Assembly (NCBI GenBank): GCA_947378615.1 | Contig: CANCKV010000021.1 | Location: 1-13,778 of the forward strand | DNA: 13,778 bases | Source of the DNA: Chitinophagaceae bacterium | GTDB lineage: Bacteria; Bacteroidota; Bacteroidia; Chitinophagales; Chitinophagaceae | Direction: 5' to 3' | Part shown: in pieces, positions 1-13,778 of the stretch | Layout: every line of letters starts with the position of its first letter | Position numbering within the stretch: the first letter of the stretch is position 1 | Notes under the pieces: generated by a model | Seen by the model: only the letters and a program-made list of their open reading frames with translations | The model's database searches: none | Told to the model about the DNA's origin: nothing | Made by a program: the position numbers and the translations under genes

Positions 1-720
1 GATAATATGATGAATCTGGAATTGTTGTTCTTTGCATCAAAAGCAACAGGCGATACCTCTTTCAAACATATTGCCATCACTCATGCGCTAACTACCATGA
101 AAAACCATATTCGTCCTAATTTTAGTACCTATCATGTAGTAAATTATGATTCAATTACGGGGAAACCATTGCAACGTGAAACTTTTCAGGGCTATGCCAA
201 TAACTCTACTTGGGCAAGAGGTCAGGCATGGAGTATTTATGGTTTTACAATGGTATATCGGGAAACAGGAGACAAACGTTTCTTGGAGACAGCACAACAT
301 TTAGCTGATTTCTTCTTGAATAATGCAAGACTACCAAAGGATAAGATTCCTTATTGGGACTTTAATGTAAATCAACCCGGCTATACTCCACAGTTTAAGT
401 ACGATTCGTCATCATACAAAGAAATTCCAAGAGATGTTTCTGCTGCGGCAATAGTGGCATCTGCCCTGTTTGATTTAAGTAAATTTTCTGGAAAGAAAGG
501 CAATACTTATCAAGCAGCTGCGGTTGAAATACTCAAGTCAATTGCATCTTCTCAATATACTGCGGAAGTAGGCAGTAATAATAATTTTATTCTCAAACAT
601 GTCACAGGAAGCTTCCCTCATGGTTCTGAAATAGATAAGCCATTGGTTTATGCAGATTATTACTATTTGGAAGCCATGTTGAAATATAAAAAATTCTTGG
701 ATAAATCAATAAATAACTAA
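1..720 (+). CDS. Unsaturated glucuronyl hydrolase, GH88 (5' end missing)
   Basis: This is the C-terminal 239 codons of a GH88 enzyme; the frame is already open at base 1 (Asp-Asn-Met-Met-Asn-Leu), so the Met codons at 7 and 10 are internal. GH88 proteins hydrate the 4,5-double bond of unsaturated uronic acids that polysaccharide lyases leave at the non-reducing end, which releases the sugar. Visible family landmarks are D-N-M-M-N-L at bases 1-18, whose Asp aligns by my recollection with the catalytic Asp149 of the Bacillus sp. GL1 enzyme, WARGQAW at 211-231, R-D-V-S-A-A-A at 430-450 and DYYYLEAM at 655-678 near the C-terminus. They lie in the order expected for the (alpha/alpha)6 barrel. The signal peptide, if any, is outside the window. 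The GH39 gene starts 4 nt downstream, so the two are probably co-transcribed. Family assignment is firm; the substrate is unknown. Confidence 0.9.
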   Translation, partial: DNMMNLELLFFASKATGDTSFKHIAITHALTTMKNHIRPNFSTYHVVNYDSITGKPLQRETFQGYANNSTWARGQAWSIYGFTMVYRETGDKRFLETAQHLADFFLNNARLPKDKIPYWDFNVNQPGYTPQFKYDSSSYKEIPRDVSAAAIVASALFDLSKFSGKKGNTYQAAAVEILKSIASSQYTAEVGSNNNFILKHVTGSFPHGSEIDKPLVYADYYYLEAMLKYKKFLDKSINN

Positions 721-724
721 ATAA

Positions 725-2314
725 TTGATAAAGAGATTGAATAAGATATTAGTAGCGTTTTTGGTCATCACAGGCATTGTGTTTTCTAAACAGACATTTT
801 CTCAAGAAAACAAGTCTGTTAGTCGCACAATTTCTGTTGATGTGTCTAAAGAAAAAGGACACACCATCAAGGCTTGGAAAAAATGTATTGGTGCAGGAAG
901 GGCGAATGAAGGATTACGTGCCGATTGGCAGGAACAATTGAGACAGGTAAAAAAAGATTGTGGATTTGAATATATACGTATGCACGGATTGTTGCATGAT
1001 GATATGGGCGTTTATTTTGAAGATGAAAAAGGTAATCCCATCTATAATTGGCAGTATATCGATAAGCTACATGACTTTCTATTAAGTATCAATATCAAAC
1101 CCTTTGTTTCATTGACGTTCATGCCAAGTGCCTTGTCTAGTGGAACAAAGACGCAGTTTTGGTGGAAAGCAAACATCAATCCTCCAAAGTCTTATCAGAA
1201 ATGGAGTGACCTTATTAAGGCTTTAACGGAACATTTTACAGAAAGATATGGAAAGGAAGAAGTGAAGAATTGGTATTTTGAAGGATGGAACGAACCTAAC
1301 TTGAAAGGTTTTTGGACGGGTGATATGCAGGAATTCTTTAAGTTATATGATGCGAGTGTACATGCTATCAAGAGTATATGTCCTGATTACAAAGTAGGTG
1401 GACCAGGTACAGCTGGAAATGGTTGGGCAAAGGAAATGATTGACTATTGTAAACAAAATAATTGTCCTATTGACTTTATCTCCACCCATAACTATGCGGT
1501 AAAACATGGTTTCTTAGATGAAAATGGCAAGATGGGTGCAATATTCAACAATAACCCAAAAGCAATTTCAGATGGTGTAATCAAAGTTCGTCATCAGATA
1601 GATAGTTCCTCAATGCCTAATTTGGAATTGCATTATACAGAATGGAGCTCATCTTCTACTCCAAGAGACCCTATTCATGATGCCTATCATTCTGCTGCTT
1701 TTATCTTGGATAAGATTAAAGGGACAGAAAATGCGGCTAACTCCATGTCTTATTGGGTGTTTACAGACATTTTTGAAGAACAAGGGCCAAGGACAACTCC
1801 TTTTCATGGTGGTTTTGGTCTGATGAATTATCAGGATATTAAGAAACCTGCCTATTTCACTTATCAATTCCTAAATAAATTGGGTAATACTGAATTGAGA
1901 AATACAGATGCAGCTTCATGGGTATGTAAAAGCGACAACGGTAATATTCAGGCTTTGTTTTGGGATTTCACTATCACTCATCCTGGCGATTCTGTTTTAG
2001 ACCAAGTATATTATAAAAGGGATTTACCATCAAAGGACAAGGGTACGGTACACTTGAAATTGACAAATGTGCCTAAAGGAAAATACAACCTGAAGGTGAC
2101 AAAAGTTGGTTATAAAAGTAACGATGCATACGCGACGTATTTGCAATTAGGGTCACCTAATCAATTGACAAAGAAACAGGTTGAAACTATTAAGGAGGCA
2201 AATGCAGGCAATCCTGTTATTTCAAAACAAGTGGAAGTGAAAGGGGATGGCAAGTTTGGGTATCAATTACCAATGAGAGAGAATGATGTGTATTTGGTGG
2301 AGTTGGAAAAGTAA
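725..2314 (+). CDS. GH39 family glycosidase (beta-xylosidase-like), secreted
   Basis: The 529-residue protein has a Sec signal peptide (about residues 1-26, Lys/Arg then a hydrophobic run, ending near TFSQ) with no lipobox Cys, so it is probably soluble in the periplasm. A TIM barrel covers about residues 45-405. WYFEGWNEPN (183-192) carries the expected acid/base Glu190, and LHYTEWSSS (302-310) the expected nucleophile Glu306; both are GH39 hallmarks of this retaining clan GH-A family. A beta-sandwich of about 120 residues closes the protein. Known GH39 activities include beta-xylosidase and alpha-iduronidase, so the sugar is not fixed by sequence alone. The start is TTG: no in-frame ATG occurs until residue 86, which would remove the signal peptide. 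A second TTG at 737 gives a shorter but still plausible signal peptide. The 4-nt gap after the GH88 stop suggests translational coupling. Confidence 0.9.
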   Translation: MIKRLNKILVAFLVITGIVFSKQTFSQENKSVSRTISVDVSKEKGHTIKAWKKCIGAGRANEGLRADWQEQLRQVKKDCGFEYIRMHGLLHDDMGVYFEDEKGNPIYNWQYIDKLHDFLLSINIKPFVSLTFMPSALSSGTKTQFWWKANINPPKSYQKWSDLIKALTEHFTERYGKEEVKNWYFEGWNEPNLKGFWTGDMQEFFKLYDASVHAIKSICPDYKVGGPGTAGNGWAKEMIDYCKQNNCPIDFISTHNYAVKHGFLDENGKMGAIFNNNPKAISDGVIKVRHQIDSSSMPNLELHYTEWSSSSTPRDPIHDAYHSAAFILDKIKGTENAANSMSYWVFTDIFEEQGPRTTPFHGGFGLMNYQDIKKPAYFTYQFLNKLGNTELRNTDAASWVCKSDNGNIQALFWDFTITHPGDSVLDQVYYKRDLPSKDKGTVHLKLTNVPKGKYNLKVTKVGYKSNDAYATYLQLGSPNQLTKKQVETIKEANAGNPVISKQVEVKGDGKFGYQLPMRENDVYLVELEK

Positions 2315-2324
2315 AATCGACCAC

Positions 2325-2360
2325 TGATTAGAGTGATTAGAGTAAATAGAGTGATTTAGG
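2325..2360 (+). repeat. Four tandem 9-bp repeats between GH39 and GH2 genes
   Basis: Four consecutive 9-mers fill this stretch: TGATTAGAG (2325-2333), TGATTAGAG (2334-2342), TAAATAGAG (2343-2351) and TGATTTAGG (2352-2360). The first two are identical; the third and fourth each differ at two positions. The array starts 10 nt after the GH39 stop codon and ends 5 nt before a hairpin. It may be a binding site, a slippage-prone tract or simply microsatellite-like spacer; nothing in the sequence decides this. Confidence 0.8.
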
Positions 2361-2365
2361 AATCA

Positions 2366-2398
2366 AAGGAAGGCTTCGCTTTGAGCGAAACCTTCCTT
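2366..2398 (+). other. Strong hairpin in the GH39-GH2 spacer
   Basis: The left arm 2366-2380 pairs with 2384-2398 through 14 base pairs with a single C/A mismatch (2374/2390), leaving a TTG loop at 2381-2383. The stem is more GC-rich than its surroundings. No T-run follows on either strand, so it is not a standard intrinsic terminator. It ends 18 nt before the GH2 start codon and could set the relative expression of the two genes through mRNA stability, processing or partial termination. Confidence 0.75.
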
Positions 2399-2416
2399 AA
2401 AGTAATAACGATAAAA

Positions 2417-5400
2417 ATGAAGAGATTAAGTATTTGGACACTTGTTTTGTTTTTCTTATTTAGTGGCTTCGTTTCTTATGCCCAAAATAGGATTACCACC
2501 GATTTGTCTGGAAGTGGATGGAGACTTTGGAAAGATGAAGACACTACTTGGAAACAGGATGTCGTTTTCTTACCTCCTGTAACTCTTTCAACACTACCTA
2601 TTCATCCTCCAACAGGTGGATGGGATGAATTGAGTAATAAAAATGGATTGAATGTAAATGTTCCAGGCACTGCAGAAGAGTATTTACAAAAAGTATCAAG
2701 CCCTGAAGGGGATATTAAAGGGGTTAGTTGGTGGTATCGCAACATTCAGATACCTGTTACAAGTTCAAATCGTAAGGTTTTAATTCGTTTTGAATCTGCC
2801 CGTTACCGTTCGGAGGTATTTATCAATCATAAATTAGTGGGGTACGATTTGATAGGAAACACCCCTTTTGAGGTTGACATTACCAATGAAGTAAAACAAG
2901 GCGAAACTGTACAGTTGGCAGTGAGAATTACCGACCCGGGTGGTGATTTTGATTGGAGGGATTGGGTAAATATCCCTTGGGGTAAAGTGAATGTTGGAGG
3001 TAGTCATGGTTTTGGTGGTATCATAGGAAGGGTTCAATTGATTTCTTGCAATCCCATTTATATAGATGATATCTATATGCAGAATACCCCCGAATATCAT
3101 ACTGCAAATGCTATTATTACCCTTAATAATTCTTCTCAAAAGTCAGAAAAGACCAACTTGTCTATTTCTGTCAGGGATAAGAAAGACCCTTCAGTAGAGA
3201 TATTTCATACCGAACTCAAAGACTTGATGATTAAACCGGGGCAGGATTCTATTTCTATCAAGATAAATGCACCTGCTGCCAAATTATGGGATGTTGACAA
3301 TCCGAATCTTTATACCTGTACCGTTTCCTTGGGAAATAAGTCAAAAACAATGGATGAAGACAAGAAAACTTTTGGTTTCCGTTGGTTTGAGTTGGCTGGC
3401 ATTGGTACAGATGCGATGTATCGCTTGAATGGAAAACGTATAATGTTAAGAACTTCGATTAGTTGGGGATTTTGGCCGGTAAATGGGTTGATTCCTACAC
3501 CTGAAATGGCTGAAAAACAAATCAGATTAGCAAAAACATTTGGATTGAATATGTTGAACTTTCATCGTTGTATCGGGTCGCCGATAGTAATGGAAAAGGC
3601 CGATGAGATTGGGTTGTTATATTATGAAGAACCCGGTAATTATAGGGGAGGAAATACCGACCTTTTTGCAAGGGCCTGTATGCGTGAGAAAATTTGTAGA
3701 ATGGTCAAGAGAGACCGTAGCCATCCTTGTATGATTATTTATACCCTGCAGAATGAGATGCGTAATGTGGATTCATTGATATTCCTTTCACAAAAAAGCG
3801 ATATGAAGGCGGCACACGAAATTGACCCATCAAGGGTGATAGTCCGTACTTCTGCATGGGCGGTTGAGGGGATAGATAAAGACGACCAATCTAAACTTCA
3901 TACCCGCCCCTTTGATACGACACAATATATGAGTGGCTATTATGATTTTCATCGTGCTAGTGGTCCTCATACTTGGAATCAATCCTTTTATAAGAATCCA
4001 ACCAATTATTATGGTTATACCACAAATGCCAAAGAAATTGTTTATTGGGGAGAAGAAGGGGCGTTGTCCACTCCATCTAGACTTGAACTCATTAGGAATG
4101 ACATTAAAAAGAATCCAAATTTAGGGTGGGATGGAGCCTTGTATCTCGATGAATACAAACAGTTTGAAAATTTTATCAAGCAAAAGAAACTCGAAACCGT
4201 ATTTCCTTCTGTAGATGCATTGACGACTGCAATGGGAAAAATCTCCTTAGAACATCAGGGAAGAAAAATAGAAAACGTTAGGATTGGTAATGTGACAGAT
4301 GGTTATGCCATCAATGGATGGGAATCGGAAATAGTGGAAAATCATTCTGGAATTGTAGATTGTTATCGCAATCCAAAGGCCGACCCTGCAATTCTTTCCT
4401 ACTATAACCAACCACTTTATGTGGCAGTAAAACCCCGCAAACAAGTAGTGGAATTACCCGGAGATGTGGTGGTGGATTTCTTTATGGTCAATGAAAAGAA
4501 CCTCAATGGGAATTTCAATTTAGCTATCGATGCAAAAGACCCCGCAGGCAAGACAATATTCTCCAAACAAATTCCTGTTACCATTTCAGGTGGAGATGTG
4601 TTTGGTCAATTGATTTCTGATGGTATTACTATCCCTGTAAATACAATTGGTGGCATGTATAAATTATCATCTTCAATCATTGATGCATCTGGGAAAACAG
4701 TTGCTATCGGACATGATGATGTATTTGGAGTAGATTGGAAAACTCAAACTATCAAGGGAAATGGAGCAGTCTGGGAATTTGGAAATAGTATCAAAGACTT
4801 CTTTAAGAATCAAAAACAAAAAGAAGTGCCCAAATATTCAAACGATACTAAAGAATTGGATTGGATGATTGTTGCCCGTTCACCAAAAGGGGGAGATATT
4901 GAGATGATACCAACCGATCAATTACGTGATGAGACTGGAAAAGCAAAGGGGTTAACTGGGAAATATTATATTGGCTATAACTTCGAAAAACAAGCAGCAA
5001 AACAAAATGAAAGAAATGTAAATATTGCCGTTAACGATGGTGCTACACCCCACCCAAGTGTAACTGCCACCAACAATTATAGCATCAAATGGGAAGGAAC
5101 AATTGTTCCTCCTTATACAGGCACCTATTATTTTCAGATGGAATTGGCTTATGGTGATGTTGGTGATTTGATAGTTGATGGCAAGAAACTGACTTTTAAT
5201 CCCAAAAAGAAATGGGTTACGGGTAATGTACAATTAGAGGAAGGGAAGGCAGTCAATATATTAGCAACATTACAACACCACAATGCTTATTCTTCTTGTA
5301 AGTTATTATGGGGTATGCCTGATCCAGACCCAATTGAGGGGCAGTCGCTTATCAATCGGGTGAAAAATGAGGGCACTACCCTTATTATTCTTGACAAAGC

Positions 5401-5803
5401 CGACACATGGATGAAATTGATTGAAAAGAATACGGCTATTAAATATACAAAAGCGTTTAAGGTAGGTGCCAATTGGTTGGGCGGTGTTGCCTTTGTAAAA
5501 TCACATCCTCTTTTCAAAGATTTGCCTGTCAATCAAGGACTCAATTGGCCTTATGAGGCTGTTGTACATAATGGCAATGAACGTTTGGGATTAGAAATGG
5601 AAGGAGAGGAATTGGTAGTAGGCAGCTACCATAGTTACCCGCAAAAGTTAGGTACGAGTGTGGGCGTAATTAATTGTGGAAAGGGTAAAATTATCTTCTC
5701 TACCCTTGACATTGCAGGTAATTTACATTCTTTAGAATCTACTTCAGGAGTGGCTAAGAAACTATTAGGTAATTATCTTGATTTCGCAATGGAGAAGAAG
5801 TGA
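2417..5803 (+). CDS. GH2 family glycosidase with PA14 domain, secreted
   Basis: A 1128-residue protein, longer than a basic GH2 enzyme. A signal peptide (about 1-23, ending SYAQ, no lipobox Cys) is followed by the GH2 sugar-binding jelly roll (about 25-215), an immunoglobulin-like domain (about 216-320) and the TIM barrel (about 325-600). The acid/base Glu is expected in LQNEMRN (Glu447); the nucleophile is probably Glu546 or 547 in YWGEEGALS. More beta domains follow, then a PA14 domain (about 845-967, starting GLTGKYY, with YTGTYYFQM and DLIVDGKKL) and a C-terminal alpha/beta region resembling a glutamine-amidotransferase-like fold (about 975-1128). GH2 enzymes are retaining exo-glycosidases on beta-galactosides, mannosides, glucuronides or arabinosides; the substrate cannot be assigned. 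An upstream TTG at 2381 would put 12 extra residues ahead of the signal peptide and lies in a hairpin loop, so ATG 2417 is preferred. The gene is probably in one operon with GH88 and GH39. Confidence 0.88.
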   Translation: MKRLSIWTLVLFFLFSGFVSYAQNRITTDLSGSGWRLWKDEDTTWKQDVVFLPPVTLSTLPIHPPTGGWDELSNKNGLNVNVPGTAEEYLQKVSSPEGDIKGVSWWYRNIQIPVTSSNRKVLIRFESARYRSEVFINHKLVGYDLIGNTPFEVDITNEVKQGETVQLAVRITDPGGDFDWRDWVNIPWGKVNVGGSHGFGGIIGRVQLISCNPIYIDDIYMQNTPEYHTANAIITLNNSSQKSEKTNLSISVRDKKDPSVEIFHTELKDLMIKPGQDSISIKINAPAAKLWDVDNPNLYTCTVSLGNKSKTMDEDKKTFGFRWFELAGIGTDAMYRLNGKRIMLRTSISWGFWPVNGLIPTPEMAEKQIRLAKTFGLNMLNFHRCIGSPIVMEKADEIGLLYYEEPGNYRGGNTDLFARACMREKICRMVKRDRSHPCMIIYTLQNEMRNVDSLIFLSQKSDMKAAHEIDPSRVIVRTSAWAVEGIDKDDQSKLHTRPFDTTQYMSGYYDFHRASGPHTWNQSFYKNPTNYYGYTTNAKEIVYWGEEGALSTPSRLELIRNDIKKNPNLGWDGALYLDEYKQFENFIKQKKLETVFPSVDALTTAMGKISLEHQGRKIENVRIGNVTDGYAINGWESEIVENHSGIVDCYRNPKADPAILSYYNQPLYVAVKPRKQVVELPGDVVVDFFMVNEKNLNGNFNLAIDAKDPAGKTIFSKQIPVTISGGDVFGQLISDGITIPVNTIGGMYKLSSSIIDASGKTVAIGHDDVFGVDWKTQTIKGNGAVWEFGNSIKDFFKNQKQKEVPKYSNDTKELDWMIVARSPKGGDIEMIPTDQLRDETGKAKGLTGKYYIGYNFEKQAAKQNERNVNIAVNDGATPHPSVTATNNYSIKWEGTIVPPYTGTYYFQMELAYGDVGDLIVDGKKLTFNPKKKWVTGNVQLEEGKAVNILATLQHHNAYSSCKLLWGMPDPDPIEGQSLINRVKNEGTTLIILDKADTWMKLIEKNTAIKYTKAFKVGANWLGGVAFVKSHPLFKDLPVNQGLNWPYEAVVHNGNERLGLEMEGEELVVGSYHSYPQKLGTSVGVINCGKGKIIFSTLDIAGNLHSLESTSGVAKKLLGNYLDFAMEKK

Positions 5804-6069: not shown

Positions 6070-9000
6070 ATGAATTTTAATAATAACAAAAAACGCTCAA
6101 GTATGAAAAAAAGTAAATTTTTATTGATTCTCCTTGCTGGATTATTCAGTTTTATGGCAGGTAATGCTACAAACTATTATTACAATGCAGCCACACCTGC
6201 AAATGACATAACCAATAAGGCCAATTGGTATGTCAATAACACCACCTATAATGGAGGAAATCCAAGTAGCTTTACCACTGGAAATACCTATATTATCTCA
6301 GGAATAGGCGCATCTGTTACTATAACAGGAGCTTTTAATCTGGGAGGCGGAACACTTCAAGTAGGTGATGGCACTAATGCCTGTACTTTTACGATTCCCT
6401 CGGGATTTGCAGTTACAGGAACTATTACTGTTTCAGCAAGCGCTACTTTAATAAATCAAAATGCAACTACCCCTACTTTGGGTACGCTATCTGCGGGCAG
6501 TACGGTAACTTTTGCAGGTTCTGGTGTTCAGACCATTCCCGCAAAAACTTACGATAACTTATCTGTAACTAATACGGGTGCAACTGTTTCAGTTGCTGGA
6601 GGTATAACGGTTAATAATGTTCTCACCATCGCAGATGGTGCTAACTTAAATATGGTTACTTCTTCTTTAACCTGTGGTGCTAGTTTTTCAACGAGTAATA
6701 ACGCTGGAACAGGAACTGGTATTCTCCAGACACAGAATACAGGAGGGTCAGGTGCAATTAATACCACAGCTCTAAGTGCTGGTGCGACATTTAACTTTAC
6801 TGTCCGATACAATGGTGCTTCAGCTCAGACTTTACCTCAAAAAACAAATACTTTCCTCAACCTAACAATTGCTAATTCAATTAGTGTTGGGATGTATACG
6901 GGTTATACAATTAATGGAACGTTGACGATAATGGATGGTTGTAGATTAAATACAGGTACCAACAGTTCTACTCTTTCAGGAACTTTTACTACAAGTAATG
7001 GAGGTGGAATTGGTACGGGAAGGCTAGTTATTCAAAATAATAGTGCTACTCCTTTACCTGCAAATAAAACTTATAATTTTGAAGTATATTATAATAGTTT
7101 AAACCTGAATCAAACAATTGTTGCAGGCAGCTATACGAAATTAGATGTGTCGCAGAATACGACTACTAGTTCAACGGGTACTACTAATCCTATAGTTGTT
7201 GCCTCGGCTACAGGAATAGCAGTTGGTCAATCAATAGTTGGAACAAATATTCCTGCAAATACCACAGTTACTGCTGTTTCTGGCACCTCTATTACTTTAT
7301 CAAATGCACCCACTGCTACCATAACCGGCACTATATTATTAGGTCCAATTAGCACTGCCACTACTACTACCTCTTCCACAGGTACCACTAATCCTATTGT
7401 TGTTGCATCAGCCACTGGCATAGCGGTTGGTCAGTCTGTTTCAGGAACAAATATTCCAGCTAGCACTACTGTTAGTGCTGTTTCTGGTACATCTATAACA
7501 TTATCATCAGCACCAACTGCTACTATAACTGGTAATATAACCTTTACAGGTTTTGGTACAAGAACATTGGCTTCTGGTACTATGTCCGTTTCTAGTTCTT
7601 TCATTCCTGGTATATCTAATTCATATACCGTTTCCTCTGGTAATACTTTAAGTCTTGGTTATACAGGAACACTTCCAACTTTAGGGTCAAACAATCCATC
7701 CTATTACAACCTTTCCGTGACTAGCGGTACAATTACTGCTAGTGATAATATTGCCGTCAGTAATGGTCTAAATATTAACAGTAGTGCAACACTCGATATG
7801 GCCGCTTATACATTATCTGTAAGTAGCACTTCCAACTATGTCCAATCTACAAGTGCAGGAGGACTACAGCCAAATTCAAATATAGTTTACTTGTCAGCAG
7901 CTAATGCAAGTATTGCAGTAGGACAACCAGTAACCAACCAATATATAACAGAAGGCACAACAGTTAGTGCTGTAACTACACCTGCTGCTGCATCTTCCTC
8001 TACATCTTCCACAGGTACAACAAACCCCATTGTTGCGACATCTGTTACAGGAACAATTGTAGTGGGAATGCCAGTTACTGGTACAAATATTCCAACAAAC
8101 ACAATTGTAACTAATGTTAGCGGTACTTCTATTACTTTGTCAAAAGCTCCAACGGCAACAGTGACTGGGACTATCACATATAGTACTTTTACTCAAGTAA
8201 CATTGACAAACAATGCCTCTGCTTCCACACCTAATGGATATGCAAATTCAAATACCTATAATCCTGTCTTTGGTACCGCCACTTCTGGGAATGGAACTTT
8301 AAAAACTGCATGCCCAACCGCTACTTCAACTACGCCAATAACATCTAGTAAAATTTGGGCATTTACGGTGAATTACTATGGTAATGCCGCACAAACAATC
8401 CCAAGTGGTAGTTCCTTCTCTAGTCTTACAAATAGCAATACCACTGCATCCGTATCTGCTGGAGGTAGTTTTACTGTCAATAATGTTCTAACTATCGCAG
8501 ATGGAGCTAACTTAAATATGGGTACTTCATCACTAACCTGTGGTGCTAGTTTTTCAACAAGCAATAATTCAGGAACAGGAACTGGTATTCTACAAACACA
8601 GAATACTAGCGGGTCTGGTGCTATTAATACCACAGCTATTAGTGCTGGCGCAATATTTAATTTTACTGTAAAGTATAATGGAGCATCAGGTCAAACATTA
8701 CCTCAAAGGGGTAACACATTCCTTAACTTAATAATTGCCAATACAAGCGGCGTTGGTATGTACACAGGCTACACTATAACTGGAACATTGACAATAATGG
8801 ATGGTTGTAGATTAAATACAGGCACGAACAGTTCTACTATTTTGGGAACTTTTTCAACTAGTAATGGTGGTGGAACAGGTACAGGTAAATTGAATTTGCA
8901 ATATAGTACCACTACTCCTGTACCTGCGGGAATTACCTACAATTTCGAAGTGGATTACAGTAGTACTTCTTCCCAAACCATTATTGGAGGAAACTATACT

Positions 9001-12000
9001 ATATTAGATGCCTCTAATACAGGCACAGCCGCAAGGACCTTGGCTTCTGGCATTGTTGCCGTTTCTACTTCATTCATACCTGGATCAACTGGAACATATA
9101 CGGTTACCTCTGGCAACACTTTGAGTTTAGGTTACACCACTTCACTGCCTACACTAGGTACAAACAACCCCAATCTATATAATTTAGCCATTTCAGATGG
9201 CACTGTTACAGCATCTAGTTCTCTTTCGATTGGTGGCTCATTCTCAATTTCGGGTGGTACATTCATAGCACCTTCTGGAAATTTTAACGTTGCGGGCAAT
9301 TGGAGCAATACTGGCGGCACTTTTACACATAATAGTGGTACGGTAGTGTTGAATGGTGCAAGTCAAGTTTTAACTGGTGCTACCACTTTCAATAATTTTA
9401 CAAAGAGTGTAGTTACCGCCGCTACTCTTACCTTACCTGCCGGATTAACTCAAATATTTGAAGGCACACTATCATTAAATGGTGCAACTGGTCAATTATT
9501 GACAATTGCTTCGAGTACTGGCAACACTGTTGCTAGTATCAATCCAACTGCAACGAATATTTATAATGTGGCAGTCAGCTATAATACAAATACAAGCGGT
9601 ACAACAATTAATGCAACTAATTCAAATGATAATGGAAATAATTCTGGATGGGGATTCGTTGCTGCTAGCACTTGGACAGGTGCGAATAGCACCAATTGGA
9701 ACGATGCTAATAACTGGAGTCCAACGGGTGTGCCTTCTTCGGGCGCAATTGTAACGATTACAACTGGAAGTAGTAATAATTTAGCGATAGAAGTCTCTCC
9801 TACTGTAGCAAGCCTTACGATTAGTTCAGGAAATACAGTTACTTTGAATAGCGGTAATACCCTAACAATTTCTGGGGTATTCAGTAATTCAGGTATTTTC
9901 AATGCGGTATCGGGTAGCACAGTTGTTGTTTCAGGAGTTTCAGGTATATCTGGCATTGGCACAAACAGTTTCAATAACCTGACTATCAATAGTGGAGCTT
10001 CATTGACTGGAGGCATTTTTACTGTTTCAGGTGCTTTTACAAACAATGGAACTTACACTGCTTCGGGTGGTACAGTAACTTTCAATGGTACTGCTGCTCA
10101 AACAGTGCCTACAGGTACCTATTACAACCTATCTATTTCAAATACTACTAATAAAGTTACATCAGCAGGGAATATCACGGTTAGTAATGGAATCAACATA
10201 GCCAATGGTGCAACTTTTGATATGTCCACCTACCAATTAATCAATAATGGCACTGCCAACTATGTATCTTATACAAGTGGGGGTGGTCTTCAAAACTCAA
10301 ATACGGTTAATTTGGCTACTGTAAATGCAAATATTGCTGTTGGTCAATCAGTATCCAATCTGTTCATACCAGAAGGTACAACAGTGTCTAGTGTAACTAC
10401 GCCAGCGGCTGCTTCTTCTAGTACCTCTTCAACTGGTACCTCAAACCCAATTGTAGCGACATCTGTAACAGGAACAATTGTAATTGGGCAGCCTGTTTCT
10501 GGCACGAATATTCCTTCAAATACTTTTGTAACGAATGTTTCTGGCACTTCTATTACTCTGTCTAAAGCACCAACTGCAACCATTACTGGAACAATCTCCT
10601 TTAGTAGTTTTACTCAAGTAACCTTGTCAACAAATGCCACTTCAACCATTGGAAATACAAATACTTATTTCATAGTCTTTGGGGCGGCTACTTCTGGTAA
10701 TGGGACATTAAATATTGGATGTCCTACCACTACTTCTGCAACACCGATAACTGCCAATAAAATTTGGGCATTTGCAGTAAATTATAATGGAACTGCTCCA
10801 CAATCAATACCTACGGGTAGTACATTTTCTAGTTTAACGAATAGCAATACAGGCGGAACTGTTTCATCTGCAAGCATGACAATCAATAATATTTTGACTC
10901 TATTAGATGGTGCAACCATAGATATGGGTACTGGTATTTTTTCATGTGGGGGTAATACAGATTATACAAATTTTTCAACAAGTAATGGTGGAGGTACTGG
11001 CACCGGAAAACTTTCAACTAAGAATACATCTGGTTCAGGTGCAATCAAATCTAATTATAATAGTTATACTTGGAATTTTACGGTAGAATATGCAGCAACT
11101 ACAGCAGGTCAAACAACTTCACAGGGTGGACAATCCTATAAGAACCTGATTATTTCCAATACTTCTGCTAGTGGCGTTGGTTTATATACGGGTGCTACAG
11201 TTAATGGAACAGTCACCATCAATTCAGGTAGTAAATTAAATATAAGTACTACCATGTATCTTTCAGGTAATTATACAACGAGTGGTACTGGTATCCTCAC
11301 TAATGCCAACCCTTCTGGAGGTTTGACTGCAGGAAGAACCTATTCTTTTGAGGTGGATTATACAAGTGGCTCTTCACAGACAATTGTGGCTGGTAATTAT
11401 ATGAGCTTAAATGGAACTGGCAACAACAGGACGCTAAGCGGCACTATTTCCATTGCAGGTGTCTTTACACCTGGCAGTGGTACTTATACCACTACAGGTA
11501 GTACAGTAGTATTTGCAGGTACTTCTGGAGTACAAACAGTGCCTGTAATTCCATATACTAATTTATCCATTACCAATACTTCTGGTACTGTTTCTGCTAG
11601 TGGTGCCCTCGCCATTTCTGGTATCATAAACATTGCTCAAGGTGCAACTTTTGATATGGGTTCTAACCAATTGACTGGAGCATTTACTACAACTGGTACT
11701 GGAACGCTCAATACAGCATGTATTACCAATCCTGCCATCACATTGGGTAGGACATTGTCTTTTGCTGTTAATTACAATGCAATAACAGGTGGGCAGTATT
11801 TCGGCGGCACTTACAATAATGGGGTGACTTTCAGCAATACGAGTGGTATCAATACTGCAGCAAGTTCAATGTCTGTTAGTGGTGTATTGGCAATTCCTGA
11901 TGCAGGCAGCACCATCAAAATGTTAACCAACCAATTGCAAGCAAGTATTAATTCGTCAAATGCAACAACCACAACAGGTTCAACTAGCGTTACTTTATCG

Positions 12001-13778
12001 GCTACAAATGCTGGCATAATTGCAGGTATGTCTGTAAATGGTACAAACATACCATTGGGTACTACCGTAAGTGCTATCAGTGGAAAGACATTGACACTAT
12101 CACAACCCGCAATTGGTGCAAACTCTAATTGTTTCTTGGTATTTAATTTCTCAACAAGTGGCAGCGGATTATTAGAAACACAAGTTCCCGCTTCATCAGG
12201 GGCAATCGTTCCTGCTATTTACAGTTTTACTGTAAAATATAACAATTCGGTTGCATCAACTTTACAAACGCTACCGCATGGTATTACATCATTTAATAAC
12301 CTGATTATTGCAAATACTGGTGGTTCAGCGGGTCTATTTGGAAACATTACGGTAAATGGTACGCTTACTTTATCTTCTAGTATTGATATTGGCAATTATA
12401 ACCTATCATTAGCGAATGTACCGGGTGGCTTTAATAGTAGTAATTATATTTTTGGCAATAGCAATGGTTCCTTGACAGTTAATTCTGTTGGATCAGGAAC
12501 GGTCGTATTCCCAATTGGCACAGCGACAGATTATACACCTTTAACTTTTAGTGGAACGACAAATACACCAAATATTACAGTGAGTGTAGGTTCTACATTC
12601 ACAAATACACCTGCCAATGTAAATAATCTAGTGAATCTTCAATGGTCAATATTAGCGAGTACTGCAAGTAGCTCAAATGTTACTTACCAATACAATACTG
12701 CAAATGTGGGAAGTAGCTATTCAAATGTAGGAGCATTATTGGGCACTTATTCAAGTGGAGCCTATTCTGAATCTTCCTTAGGTTCGGTTAGTGGTAGCAA
12801 TCCGTTTAGTGTTACAAAATCTTCCTTGACTTTACCTACTGGAAGTGCCAGTCTATTTGGCATTGGCAATCAATATGCCTTTATTGCGACAAAACCAGCT
12901 GCCCCGAGTATTGGAACAGTTACTTCCAGTAACCAACAGGTCTCTGTCGCTTTCACAGCCCCTTCTAATAATGGCAGTACGCCCATTACAGTTTATACTG
13001 CAACTTCTAATCCTGGAGGTCTTATAGGAACAGGTTCTTCAAGTCCTGTTACAGTCTCAGGATTGACAAATGGCTTAACTTATACATTTACGGTAACAGC
13101 CACTAATTCTGTTGGAACAAGTGTTGCAAGTGCAGCATCTGCATCGGTTATACCTGCAACAGTTCCTGACGCTCCTGCTTATGATACGGCGATTGCTGAT
13201 AATAAACAAGTTTATATTAGCTATACAGCACCTGTAAGCAATGGTGGTTCTGCGATTATTGACTATACTATTACTGCAATTCCTACTTCAGGTAGCCCTA
13301 TTTTAAGGACGGGTATTACGGCTAATCCTTATACTTTCAATGGGTTAACAAATAATATATCTTATACCTTTACGGTAGCTGCAAGAAACACCGTAGGTAC
13401 TGGTTCAACACGTACCACAAATACCTCAACGCCTTCTGCCATTACCATTTGGAATGGTACCACTTGGAGTGCAGGTATTCCTGACCAAAACCAAGCAGCC
13501 GTCATAGCGGCACCATTAACAAACAACACACCTCTTGAATGTACTAAGTTTACTGTGAACCCAGGTGTGACTTTTGTAAACAACAGTACTTTGACTATTG
13601 ACAGTACACCTATTACCATCAATGGAACGGTAAAAGGTACTGGAACAATAGTATTGTCTGGTTCATCAACACAAACAATTGCCGGAAAAGGTGTGGTAGG
13701 TAATATTACCGTCAGCAATCCCTTTGGTGTATTGGTTTCAGGCGGAGACAGCCTTGCGATTACAGGTATATTAAACTT
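6070..13778 (+). CDS. Giant repeat-rich secreted surface protein (3' end missing)
   Basis: I read this frame codon by codon and found no stop from 6070 to the window end: 2569 codons plus 2 nt. The first in-frame ATG after the stop at 6025 is 6070; ATG 6103 (MKKSKFLLILLAG) gives a more compact signal peptide and is a real alternative start. Cleavage is expected near FMAGNA. The mature part is Ser/Thr/Asn/Gly-rich and poor in charged residues. It is built of beta repeats with the signature V-x-Y/F-N-G-x-x-Q-T-I/L/V-P followed by Y/F-x-N-L-x-I-x-N, typical of large Bacteroidota surface proteins. W-rich units appear near 6226, 9673 (TWTGANSTNWNDANNW) and 13450 (IWNGTTWSAGIPD). A stretch with VVFPIGTATDYTPLTF (about 12475-12891) looks like a beta-sandwich, followed by two FN3 domains. 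A type IX sorting domain probably lies beyond the window. The likely role is adhesion, gliding or matrix formation; no catalytic domain is visible. Confidence 0.9.
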   Translation, partial: MNFNNNKKRSSMKKSKFLLILLAGLFSFMAGNATNYYYNAATPANDITNKANWYVNNTTYNGGNPSSFTTGNTYIISGIGASVTITGAFNLGGGTLQVGDGTNACTFTIPSGFAVTGTITVSASATLINQNATTPTLGTLSAGSTVTFAGSGVQTIPAKTYDNLSVTNTGATVSVAGGITVNNVLTIADGANLNMVTSSLTCGASFSTSNNAGTGTGILQTQNTGGSGAINTTALSAGATFNFTVRYNGASAQTLPQKTNTFLNLTIANSISVGMYTGYTINGTLTIMDGCRLNTGTNSSTLSGTFTTSNGGGIGTGRLVIQNNSATPLPANKTYNFEVYYNSLNLNQTIVAGSYTKLDVSQNTTTSSTGTTNPIVVASATGIAVGQSIVGTNIPANTTVTAVSGTSITLSNAPTATITGTILLGPISTATTTTSSTGTTNPIVVASATGIAVGQSVSGTNIPASTTVSAVSGTSITLSSAPTATITGNITFTGFGTRTLASGTMSVSSSFIPGISNSYTVSSGNTLSLGYTGTLPTLGSNNPSYYNLSVTSGTITASDNIAVSNGLNINSSATLDMAAYTLSVSSTSNYVQSTSAGGLQPNSNIVYLSAANASIAVGQPVTNQYITEGTTVSAVTTPAAASSSTSSTGTTNPIVATSVTGTIVVGMPVTGTNIPTNTIVTNVSGTSITLSKAPTATVTGTITYSTFTQVTLTNNASASTPNGYANSNTYNPVFGTATSGNGTLKTACPTATSTTPITSSKIWAFTVNYYGNAAQTIPSGSSFSSLTNSNTTASVSAGGSFTVNNVLTIADGANLNMGTSSLTCGASFSTSNNSGTGTGILQTQNTSGSGAINTTAISAGAIFNFTVKYNGASGQTLPQRGNTFLNLIIANTSGVGMYTGYTITGTLTIMDGCRLNTGTNSSTILGTFSTSNGGGTGTGKLNLQYSTTTPVPAGITYNFEVDYSSTSSQTIIGGNYTILDASNTGTAARTLASGIVAVSTSFIPGSTGTYTVTSGNTLSLGYTTSLPTLGTNNPNLYNLAISDGTVTASSSLSIGGSFSISGGTFIAPSGNFNVAGNWSNTGGTFTHNSGTVVLNGASQVLTGATTFNNFTKSVVTAATLTLPAGLTQIFEGTLSLNGATGQLLTIASSTGNTVASINPTATNIYNVAVSYNTNTSGTTINATNSNDNGNNSGWGFVAASTWTGANSTNWNDANNWSPTGVPSSGAIVTITTGSSNNLAIEVSPTVASLTISSGNTVTLNSGNTLTISGVFSNSGIFNAVSGSTVVVSGVSGISGIGTNSFNNLTINSGASLTGGIFTVSGAFTNNGTYTASGGTVTFNGTAAQTVPTGTYYNLSISNTTNKVTSAGNITVSNGINIANGATFDMSTYQLINNGTANYVSYTSGGGLQNSNTVNLATVNANIAVGQSVSNLFIPEGTTVSSVTTPAAASSSTSSTGTSNPIVATSVTGTIVIGQPVSGTNIPSNTFVTNVSGTSITLSKAPTATITGTISFSSFTQVTLSTNATSTIGNTNTYFIVFGAATSGNGTLNIGCPTTTSATPITANKIWAFAVNYNGTAPQSIPTGSTFSSLTNSNTGGTVSSASMTINNILTLLDGATIDMGTGIFSCGGNTDYTNFSTSNGGGTGTGKLSTKNTSGSGAIKSNYNSYTWNFTVEYAATTAGQTTSQGGQSYKNLIISNTSASGVGLYTGATVNGTVTINSGSKLNISTTMYLSGNYTTSGTGILTNANPSGGLTAGRTYSFEVDYTSGSSQTIVAGNYMSLNGTGNNRTLSGTISIAGVFTPGSGTYTTTGSTVVFAGTSGVQTVPVIPYTNLSITNTSGTVSASGALAISGIINIAQGATFDMGSNQLTGAFTTTGTGTLNTACITNPAITLGRTLSFAVNYNAITGGQYFGGTYNNGVTFSNTSGINTAASSMSVSGVLAIPDAGSTIKMLTNQLQASINSSNATTTTGSTSVTLSATNAGIIAGMSVNGTNIPLGTTVSAISGKTLTLSQPAIGANSNCFLVFNFSTSGSGLLETQVPASSGAIVPAIYSFTVKYNNSVASTLQTLPHGITSFNNLIIANTGGSAGLFGNITVNGTLTLSSSIDIGNYNLSLANVPGGFNSSNYIFGNSNGSLTVNSVGSGTVVFPIGTATDYTPLTFSGTTNTPNITVSVGSTFTNTPANVNNLVNLQWSILASTASSSNVTYQYNTANVGSSYSNVGALLGTYSSGAYSESSLGSVSGSNPFSVTKSSLTLPTGSASLFGIGNQYAFIATKPAAPSIGTVTSSNQQVSVAFTAPSNNGSTPITVYTATSNPGGLIGTGSSSPVTVSGLTNGLTYTFTVTATNSVGTSVASAASASVIPATVPDAPAYDTAIADNKQVYISYTAPVSNGGSAIIDYTITAIPTSGSPILRTGITANPYTFNGLTNNISYTFTVAARNTVGTGSTRTTNTSTPSAITIWNGTTWSAGIPDQNQAAVIAAPLTNNTPLECTKFTVNPGVTFVNNSTLTIDSTPITINGTVKGTGTIVLSGSSTQTIAGKGVVGNITVSNPFGVLVSGGDSLAITGILN
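6595..7158 (+). repeat. Block C, copy 1 of the giant gene
   Basis: This 188-codon block starts AGGITVNNVLTIADG and ends KLDVSQN. It contains two solenoid-like units (FNFTVRYNGASAQTLP, YNFEVYYNSL) and two Cys codons (SLTCGA, MDGCRLN). It matches 8458-9018 closely at both protein and DNA level, including a 29-bp exact string inside the segment encoding IMDGCRLNTG. The similarity marks a fairly recent internal duplication. Confidence 0.9.
7159..7335 (+). repeat. Portable module A1 (59 codons)
   Basis: The core reads STGTTNPIVVASATG, then VGQSIVGTNIP, then AVSGTSITLS and TATITGTI. It matches module A2 at 53 of 59 residues by hand count. It lies between block C1 (ending LDVSQN) and block E1 (starting RTLASG), a position occupied by only a few codons in the sister repeat near 9019-9033. 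Confidence 0.9.
7363..7539 (+). repeat. Portable module A2 (59 codons)
   Basis: In tandem with A1 with a start-to-start period of 204 bp, joined by a 27-bp linker. Six residues differ from A1, while 27 of the 53 identical residues use a different synonymous codon by hand count. The duplication is therefore old relative to its protein conservation. Confidence 0.9.
7561..7740 (+). repeat. Block E, copy 1 (60 codons)
   Basis: The block runs from RTLASG through SFIPG, SGNTLSLGYT and LPTLG to the NLSVTSGTITA end. It has the same length as 9034-9213 and about two thirds identical residues. It follows the A1-A2 insert and leads directly into block D1. Confidence 0.88.
7873..7992 (+). repeat. Degenerate module B3 next to A3
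   Basis: Forty codons with NIVYLSAANASIAVGQPV and EGTTVSAVTTPAAA. This resembles a shortened and diverged A module (V-x-L-S-x-A, I-A-V-G-Q, T-T-V-S-A-V). An equal-length counterpart is at 10294-10413. Confidence 0.7.
7996..8175 (+). repeat. Portable module A3 (60 codons)
   Basis: Carries STGTTNPIVATSVTG, VGMPVTGTNIP, NVSGTSITLSKAPTA and VTGTI. It has one codon more than A1/A2 and matches A4 at 53 of 60 residues by hand count. It sits inside block D1. Confidence 0.88.
8458..9018 (+). repeat. Block C, copy 2 of the giant gene
   Basis: This 187-codon block starts AGGSFTVNNVLTIADG and ends ILDASN. It includes FNFTVKYNGASGQTLP, the two Cys sites (SLTCGA, MDGCRLN) and YNFEVDYSSTSSQTI. It is the closest sister of 6595-7158. 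It is followed almost at once by block E2 with no A module between, so it preserves the 'empty site'. Confidence 0.9.
9034..9213 (+). repeat. Block E, copy 2 (60 codons)
   Basis: Starts RTLASG and contains SFIPG, SGNTLSLGYT and LPTLG, in register with 7561-7740 without gaps. After it the similarity to block D stops and non-repeated sequence follows until 10165. Confidence 0.88.
9670..9960 (+). other. W-rich unit opening a new repeat section
   Basis: The encoded TWTGANSTNWNDANNW and SPTGVP, followed by two short beta repeats with SGNTVTL and SGNTLTISG, form a unit common at section starts in large Bacteroidota secreted proteins. Related but weaker W units lie near 6226 and at 13450. They appear to divide the protein into at least three sections. 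Confidence 0.6.
10294..10413 (+). repeat. Degenerate module B4 next to A4
   Basis: Forty codons with NTVNLATVNANIAVGQSV and EGTTVSSVTTPAAA, the exact-length counterpart of 7873-7992. It is a diverged relative of the A module. Confidence 0.7.
10417..10596 (+). repeat. Portable module A4 (60 codons)
   Basis: Carries STGTSNPIVATSVTG, IGQPVSGTNIP, NVSGTSITLSKAPTA and ITGTI. It shares the extra codon with A3 and is placed at the same point of block D2. Confidence 0.88.
10861..11409 (+). repeat. Block C, copy 3 (divergent)
   Basis: Aligns with C1 and C2 through TINNILTLLDGATIDMGTG, FSTSNGGGTGTGKL, GVGLYTG and YSFEVDYTSGSSQTI. The first Cys is kept (FSCGG) but the second is lost (NSGSKLN in place of MDGCRLN). 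No A module follows it. Confidence 0.75.
11821..12420 (+). repeat. Degenerate block C4 split by a module
   Basis: Weak C-type pattern: SVSGVLAIPDAG and NQLQAS, then module A5, then FSTSGSGLLETQ, YSFTVKYNNS, LQTLPHG, FNNLIIANTGG and VNGTLTLSS. The interruption falls where C1 and C2 read LTCGA-SFSTSNN without an insert. Confidence 0.6.
11959..12120 (+). repeat. Portable module A5 (divergent)
   Basis: About 54 codons with TGSTSVTLSATNAG, AGMSVNGTNIPLGTTVSAI and SGKTLTLSQPA. It keeps the A-module frame (G-x-x-V-x-G-T-N-I-P-x-x-T-x-V-x-x-I/V-S-G) but diverges elsewhere. It sits inside block C4. Confidence 0.72.
12895..13158 (+). other. Fibronectin type III domain 1
   Basis: About 88 residues starting PAAPSIGTV, with VSVAFTAPSNNG, ITVYTAT, SGLTNGLTYTFTVTATNSVG and an ending SVIPAT. 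The order P-x-x-P, A-P-x-x-N-G-G/S, L-x-N-G-x-x-Y-x-F-x-V-x-A-x-N is classic for bacterial FN3. It is probably a spacer or ligand-contact domain. Confidence 0.88.
13162..13440 (+). other. Fibronectin type III domain 2
   Basis: About 93 residues: VPDAPAYDTA, VYISYTAPVSNGGSAIIDY, NGLTNNISYTFTVAARNTVG, ending TSTPSA. It directly follows the first FN3 domain and leads into the W unit at 13450, where a new repeat section begins. Confidence 0.88.

Follow-up and report, generated by a model that had tools for sequence, protein, structure and literature searches.

What is the short module that recurs at three different sites of one giant repeat protein: a domain in its own right, or one more repeat of its host? 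The question arises from a stretch of 13,778 bases (hereafter the window, meaning the whole stretch analysed), which is the entire contig C21 of a Chitinophagaceae bacterium assembly (3.66 Mb, 590 contigs, 67.7% complete). A preliminary description of these letters had proposed a plug-in domain that moves independently of its host repeats and had pointed to similar strings in phage tail-fibre-like proteins and large adhesins. Our follow-up leads us to regard the module as probably a small all-beta, optional loop insert that can nest within its own kind, is found in unrelated extracellular and virion proteins, and would add weak binding or spacing there.

Host gene and genomic context

The module copies lie in a single open reading frame, whose internal repeats we mapped by a gapless diagonal scan:

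6070..13776, plus strand: host open reading frame, 2569 aa, a repeat scaffold with its 3' end missing at the contig end

Its only Pfam match above cut-off is fn3, near the C-terminus, and a scan of the frame against NCBIfam gave no match. The nearest database relative is P0001 (3142 aa), with 69% identity over 93% of the searched region. On contig C13 (3-2420), the C-terminal fragment L023 shares 95% identity with the final 155 residues of the host frame; it may be the missing end from another strain, or a paralogue. PF18962 (Por_Secre_tail, the T9SS sorting domain) matches above cut-off at the ends of both P0001 and L023, and P0002 carries an above-cut-off match too. Because P0001 and the C13 fragment end in this domain, the host protein, whose own end is cut off, is likely exported by the type IX system.

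Upstream of the giant gene, window positions 1-5803 hold one GH39 and one GH2-PA14 gene, together with a fragment that matches GH88/GH127 at sub-cut-off level, a gene order as in a putative polysaccharide-use cluster. An intergenic short tandem repeat of period 9 lies at 2325-2356. For the related giants P0006, P0008 and P0003, database entries give PF09093 together with PF09092 in two and PF02839 (CBM_5_12) in the third; PF02278 is additionally listed for P0006. We take PF09093, PF09092 and PF02278 to be polysaccharide-lyase domains.

Five related copies of one module

The module is ~57 aa long and occurs five times in the host frame:

7168..7344 (aa 367-425), plus strand: module A1, leading member of a tandem pair that occupies the loop from LDVS to RTLASG
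7372..7548 (aa 435-493), plus strand: module A2, second of the tandem pair
8008..8187, plus strand: module A3, nested in block D1; the insert including linkers spans about 7975-8190
10426..10602, plus strand: module A4, nested in block D2; the insert including linkers spans about 10396-10611
11962..12147, plus strand: module A5, a diverged copy between LQAS and FNFSTSG

A profile built from the five window copies recovers each of them (i-E 9e-24 to 2e-26), and a wider profile built from relatives recovers all five again; since the window copies were included in both profiles, neither is an independent test. The copies are thus where the preliminary description had placed them. Its claim of one shared signature needs correcting for A5, which lacks the STGTTNPIV start and is more distant, at 39% identity to A1.

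A1 and A2 share 85% protein identity and 75% DNA identity, with dS about 1.0 and dN/dS 0.135, close to the values between duplicated scaffold blocks (three pairs; dS 1.1-1.5, dN/dS 0.13-0.21). Given these values, the protein sequence of the two is under constraint, and neither is a recent copy of the other at the DNA level. We also considered a mobile DNA element carrying the module; the silent-site divergence of A1 and A2 speaks against recent copying only. Across 52 aligned copies, full invariance is limited to two glycines, with one Ile and one Ser coming close to it. Elsewhere, L081 (genome G003) and L083 (genome G006) carry six and four tandem modules in one protein, an arrangement unlike nesting.

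Occupied and empty sites

Sister repeats within the same protein lack the module at matching positions:

8998..9051, plus strand: empty LD.S/RTLASG site of scaffold copy 2 (LDASNTGTAARTLASG at 9004-9051), 0 modules
about 11401..11442, plus strand: empty LD.S/RTLASG-type site of scaffold copy 3 (LNGTGNNRTLSG), 0 modules
6670..6699, plus strand: empty counterpart of the A5 site (TCGA-SFSTSN)
8536..8565, plus strand: empty counterpart of the A5 site (TCGA-SFSTSN)

Empty sites at 9004-9051, about 6670 and about 8536 had been pointed out before and are confirmed; the one at about 11401-11442 was absent from that account. A pattern search for the LD.S/RTLASG site in the collected proteins returned 20 rows, three of them from the near-duplicates P0003, P0005 and P0006. 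We disregarded one P0004 row, which fuses two distant motifs, and identified separately the occupied instances in L076 and P0001 that the pattern had missed. This site holds two modules in window copy 1. It holds one in L025, in L076 (near-duplicate P0003), in one of the P0001 instances, and in P0004 and P0007. It holds none in window copies 2 and 3, another P0001 instance, P0002, both instances in P0008, both in L066, and L065 and L068 (near-duplicates P0006 and P0005). At the A5-type site, one pattern found 3 occupied and 17 empty instances; the counts at both sites depend on the search patterns. Homologues of the host therefore do lack the module at matching sites, as do 60 of 120 SusD proteins described below. 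By these comparisons, homologous hosts differ at one and the same site in whether they carry the module, as would be expected of a portable domain.

One module inside the hairpin of another

The preliminary description had treated block D (7873-8175 and 10294-10596) as plain scaffold into which a module was inserted. The insertion stands; the plain scaffold does not, as the flanks are, at the level of sequence, the two halves of a diverged outer module:

7873..7974, plus strand: N-terminal half of the D1 outer module, ending GTTVSAV
8191..8226, plus strand: C-terminal half of the D1 outer module (TQVTLTNNASAS), rank 3 of 2114 unmasked starts
10294..10395, plus strand: N-terminal half of the D2 outer module, ending GTTVSSV
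10612..10647, plus strand: C-terminal half of the D2 outer module (TQVTLSTNATST), rank 1 of 2114 unmasked starts

Block D reads ...IAVGQPVTNQYITEGTTVSAV, then A3, then TQVTLTNNASAS, that is, outer half, inner module, outer half. The profile recognises the N-terminal halves on their own, at 35 bits for D1 and 36 bits for D2 and at 26-39 bits over all cases. As a test of the C-terminal halves, we fused each N-terminal half in silico with all 18-residue stretches of its protein that lie clear of known modules and ranked the true flank among them. Besides D2, the true flank came first in L065 of genome G011 (1/3504) and in L068 of genome G008 (1/3502), both genomes belonging to the window's genus, and second in L025 of the window's own genome (2/1712). 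The third rank of D1 corresponds to the second distinct place, the rivals ahead of it being D2's own flank. Two further nesting cases in L068 are weak, with ranks 9/3502 and 21/3502.

Split copies recur well beyond the window. We surveyed 49 proteins with 152 module matches, three of these proteins being near-duplicates of loci already in the collection, and found 14 N-terminal part-matches ending at or before model position 43. A full module follows within 12 residues in 13 of the 14; in the fourteenth (L025), the insert is module-like by eye and unrecognised by the profile. After removal of duplicates, 10 distinct split copies remain, with breaks at model positions 37-42 of 52; no part-match ends before position 37, and shorter halves might be too weak for detection. 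Visual inspection added two nested copies, in P0002 and P0007. One nested position, marked by the common flank FSGQQTT, is unsplit in L066 (G011) and split in L068 (G008) and L025 (the window's own genome). As the profile matches place them, A3 and A4 are inserted in the hairpin of an outer module, each a passenger within a companion domain. Tandem duplication alone cannot produce the resulting N-N-C-C order, which requires insertion into the hairpin.

Copies cluster by site

In a tree of 127 modules with few resolved branches, copies from one site tend to group together: the tree needs 12 changes of site, where shuffling gave a mean of 31.4. After each other, the closest rows to A1 and A2 are nested copies from other species. 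AU tests on 30 of 32 chosen rows, two SusD rows being absent, rejected neither a single clade for the LD.S site (p 0.388) nor a single clade for the nested set (p 0.603). Because copies cluster by site and the AU tests reject neither clade, we dropped the idea that the module jumped repeatedly between sites of these giant proteins. The plug-in proposal is supported in its main part: the module is an optional unit, with 0, 1 or 2 copies at the LD.S site and with presence in 60 of 120 SusD proteins, where its state changed 7 times, 4 of them forced. Its independent movement between sites of these giants is not borne out by the clustering or the tests.

Changes of module state in SusD lipoproteins

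The module also resides in SusD/RagB lipoproteins, namely L086 and L087 (Pfam PF07980/PF14322) and L188 (by homology). L188 has 2120 SusD homologues at E 1e-30; in the best 120 of them, the module is present in 60 and absent from 60, and 17 aligned rows show a clean gap at ...LNNLYTAT/DARKAVNIGVYG.... We built a SusD tree of 122 proteins with the insert removed, comprising 119 of the 120 homologues (one short fragment was dropped) and the three loci. On this tree, obtained by a quick search, the module state changes 7 times, and 4 changes are forced by supported branches. Of the results here, the SusD tree gives the best evidence of repeated gain or loss of the module as a unit. SusD proteins and phage adaptors are not known to be beta solenoids, and the presence of the module in both speaks, indirectly, against its being an integral coil of a solenoid.

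Taxonomic spread and viral hosts

A profile search of 59 genomes (E up to 1e-3) found the module in the window's own genome, in 10/12 genomes of the same genus and in 2/46 others. In a sample of 296 Bacteroidota (E up to 1e-5), it occurs in the window's own genome and in 3/295 others. A scan of named genomes gave at least five module loci, at least three of them in Verrucomicrobia. One of the loci on a Verrucomicrobia contig, L184, is a 2050-aa frame with ten module matches, so that the module family extends beyond Bacteroidota and phages.

Viral contigs scanned with A2 yielded 159 stretches encoding relatives, of which we retained 80. Most retained loci encode a protein of at most about 380 aa with a single module near its midpoint or its initial third, several of these proteins being cut by contig ends. 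We scanned eight of these viral proteins: five match SU10_adaptor (PF24175, head-tail adaptor), one matches Baseplate_wedge (PF23786), one matches DUF4815 and one gave nothing above cut-off. The one module-less adaptor compared, from the marine phage MW574966, lacks the module at the corresponding place. With a phage-derived copy as query, 207/50,697 phage records matched at a lax threshold (E up to 1; best 3e-6). By name, 206 of the 207 are cyanophages, and among the phage matches listed 37 of 40 are annotated 'fibre'. A tblastn search of A2 against phage and plasmid collections gave nothing at E 0.01, for which the low-complexity filter or the size of the collections is perhaps responsible. 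The phage connection drawn in the preliminary description is thus borne out, with the module found in viral adaptors, a baseplate wedge and cyanophage tail fibres. Taken with SusD, these profile matches put the module in unrelated kinds of host, as would be expected of a portable domain.

Around two of the viral loci, 7 of ten neighbour proteins match PHROGs, nearly all of unknown function; one of these neighbours matches tail fibre and head decoration too. Further along, the adaptors L104, L139 and L147 contain a second, distinct insert rich in GGSGYVSGTYYNVPL-like letters, a region that matches tail-fibre, baseplate and head-closure PHROGs. With this second, different insert, the adaptors seem to accept more than one portable module.

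Family matches and predicted structure

We found no convincing Pfam match for the module (8 copies, then 52 copies) and no convincing NCBIfam match (52 copies). GvpU matched 1/52 copies at E 0.0049. We rejected PASTA (PF03793), which matched 2/52 copies at E up to 0.1 (best 0.0079). Ig-family Pfam matches were absent from 8 copies at E up to 10 and from 52 copies at E up to 0.1. The family phrog_5838 (virion structural protein) was matched by 7 of 8 copies, with a best E of 1.6e-7. In phrog_5838, 6005 and 6002 (virion structural protein) and in phrog_10467 (unknown function), this module forms part of larger proteins, as matches of the module set and of whole viral proteins show, but these are whole-protein clusters and offer no model of the module itself. 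In sequence searches of the PDB, the decoration protein 8eci was the only full-length match, a weak one (E 0.054 for an 8-row and 0.24 for a 52-row profile); its profile alignment, which is not significant, runs across nearly the whole module. The single copy A4 gave a best E of 0.37, and polyubiquitin matches were rejected as sums of repeats worth 3-4 bits each. A literature search turned up no description of the module in the portions of the sources it covered, and a letter-string query gave unrelated work only.

AlphaFold2 modelled the nested piece (window aa 590-728, 40 rows) with strands only, at a mean pLDDT of 80.7 and a pTM of 0.67. By block, pLDDT is about 78-89 in the outer N-terminal half, 77 in the linker, 83-92 in most of the inner module and about 80 in the outer C-terminal half. 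The nested piece is thus predicted to be all-beta. Between the outer strands 42-47 and 119-123, the model has a strand in the linker (52-58) and the inner module's final strand (109-115). A putative two-stranded stalk would fit this layout.

Comparison with known systems

Among known architectures, the split domains of RTX adhesins come closest. In the sections of the reports drawn on here, such split domains project a ligand-binding domain, and in AhLap of Aeromonas hydrophila another insert in turn interrupts the projected vWFA domain (PMC12077191; PMC10865825). Common to both systems would be a giant surface protein and a domain held within the fold of a companion, budding off axis (PMC12077191, in the part used). 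The adhesin companion, as these sections present it, is an Ig-like domain (two cases) or an RTX roll, its passenger comes from another family and export is of type I, whereas platform and passenger in the window protein are both members of the ~57-aa family, and a sorting domain of type IX is found in the relatives. We found neither RTX repeats nor type I secretion here: no Pfam match of the host frame up to E 1 is to RTX, and the relatives end in PF18962.

Ig-like domains of tailed-phage virion proteins are promiscuous and measure 80-100 residues. Like them, the module is small, optional in virion proteins and also found in bacterial surface proteins. Unlike them, it has about 57 residues, shows no Ig-family match and is inserted in loops. 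For the tail and neck proteins of phages, the part of the literature consulted describes domain shuffling (PMC10684548).

Interpretation and alternatives

Copies of the module, their presence or absence at matching sites, nesting in one hairpin of its own kind and occurrence in unrelated hosts are facts at the level of sequence. On the reading that we favour, the module would be a small domain, all-beta and lacking its own model in Pfam and NCBIfam, that is optional in the loops of unrelated proteins. In the window, it would occupy loops of a giant beta-repeat protein, assumed to be a solenoid, with a T9SS sorting domain at the ends of its closest relatives. Block D would have one copy sitting in the hairpin of another, making the outer copy a split platform for the inner. 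The module would fold alone and face solvent, and it may add weak binding of a ligand (perhaps a glycan), by analogy with RTX adhesins, or else bulk and spacing at the cell or virion surface. We lean towards glycans because of the neighbouring glycoside hydrolases, the SusD hosts and the lyase and CBM accessions in P0003, P0006 and P0008. The module would have spread by within-gene duplication and, now and then, by passing from one gene to another or between phages and bacteria.

The most serious alternative is that the module mainly serves as a structural stiffener or spacer, enlarging the protein or padding a crowded surface, and itself binds no ligand. This is a real possibility, although we lean somewhat against it. 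In its favour, the 52 aligned copies have no invariant polar or aromatic residue, and the module appears in neck, fibre and baseplate proteins and surface lipoproteins alike. Against this, the dN/dS of about 0.14 between A1 and A2 indicates constraint, though maintenance of the fold could explain it, and the domains that emerge from split domains in RTX adhesins are taken as ligand-binding in the passages we rely on (PMC12077191).

A more ambitious version of the favoured reading has a self-nesting family whose own hairpin is the preferred landing site, exchanged between virion proteins of tailed phages and outer-surface proteins of Bacteroidota (SusD and the type-IX-exported giants), both binding the same surface glycans. 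We consider this combination doubtful.

We think it unlikely that ordinary lineage-specific evolution of beta repeats, by unequal crossing-over in one gene family, would account for the module without independent domain status. Its concentration in one genus (10/12 against 2/46 other relatives, and 3/295 other Bacteroidota) would fit such a history, as would the tandem arrangement of A1 and A2, their divergence and dN/dS at the level of duplicated scaffold blocks, and the clustering of copies by site. However, SusD and phage adaptors carry this very module as an insert, viral baseplate and tail-fibre proteins contain it too, and the N-N-C-C order of nesting is impossible by tandem duplication alone. 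Finally, the flanks of block D might resemble module halves by chance in a low-complexity, beta-rich protein full of Thr, Ser and Val, where many positions gain something when joined and two of the seven cases rank only 9 and 21, yet this is very improbable given that in three proteins the flank right after the inner module outranks all other positions (2114, 3504 and 3502 positions in all), that the N-terminal half alone scores 26-39 bits and that a break in the same stretch recurs at 10 distinct places.

On the favoured reading of an optional, self-nesting loop insert, a module without a family model links bacterial surface proteins (SusD and the giants) with neck, baseplate and fibre proteins of phages, and a profile for it would annotate many such proteins. 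The SusD homologues, 60 with and 60 without the module among the best 120, amount to a natural experiment on the effect of an inserted surface module. Self-nesting in one hairpin would be an unusual route to split domains.
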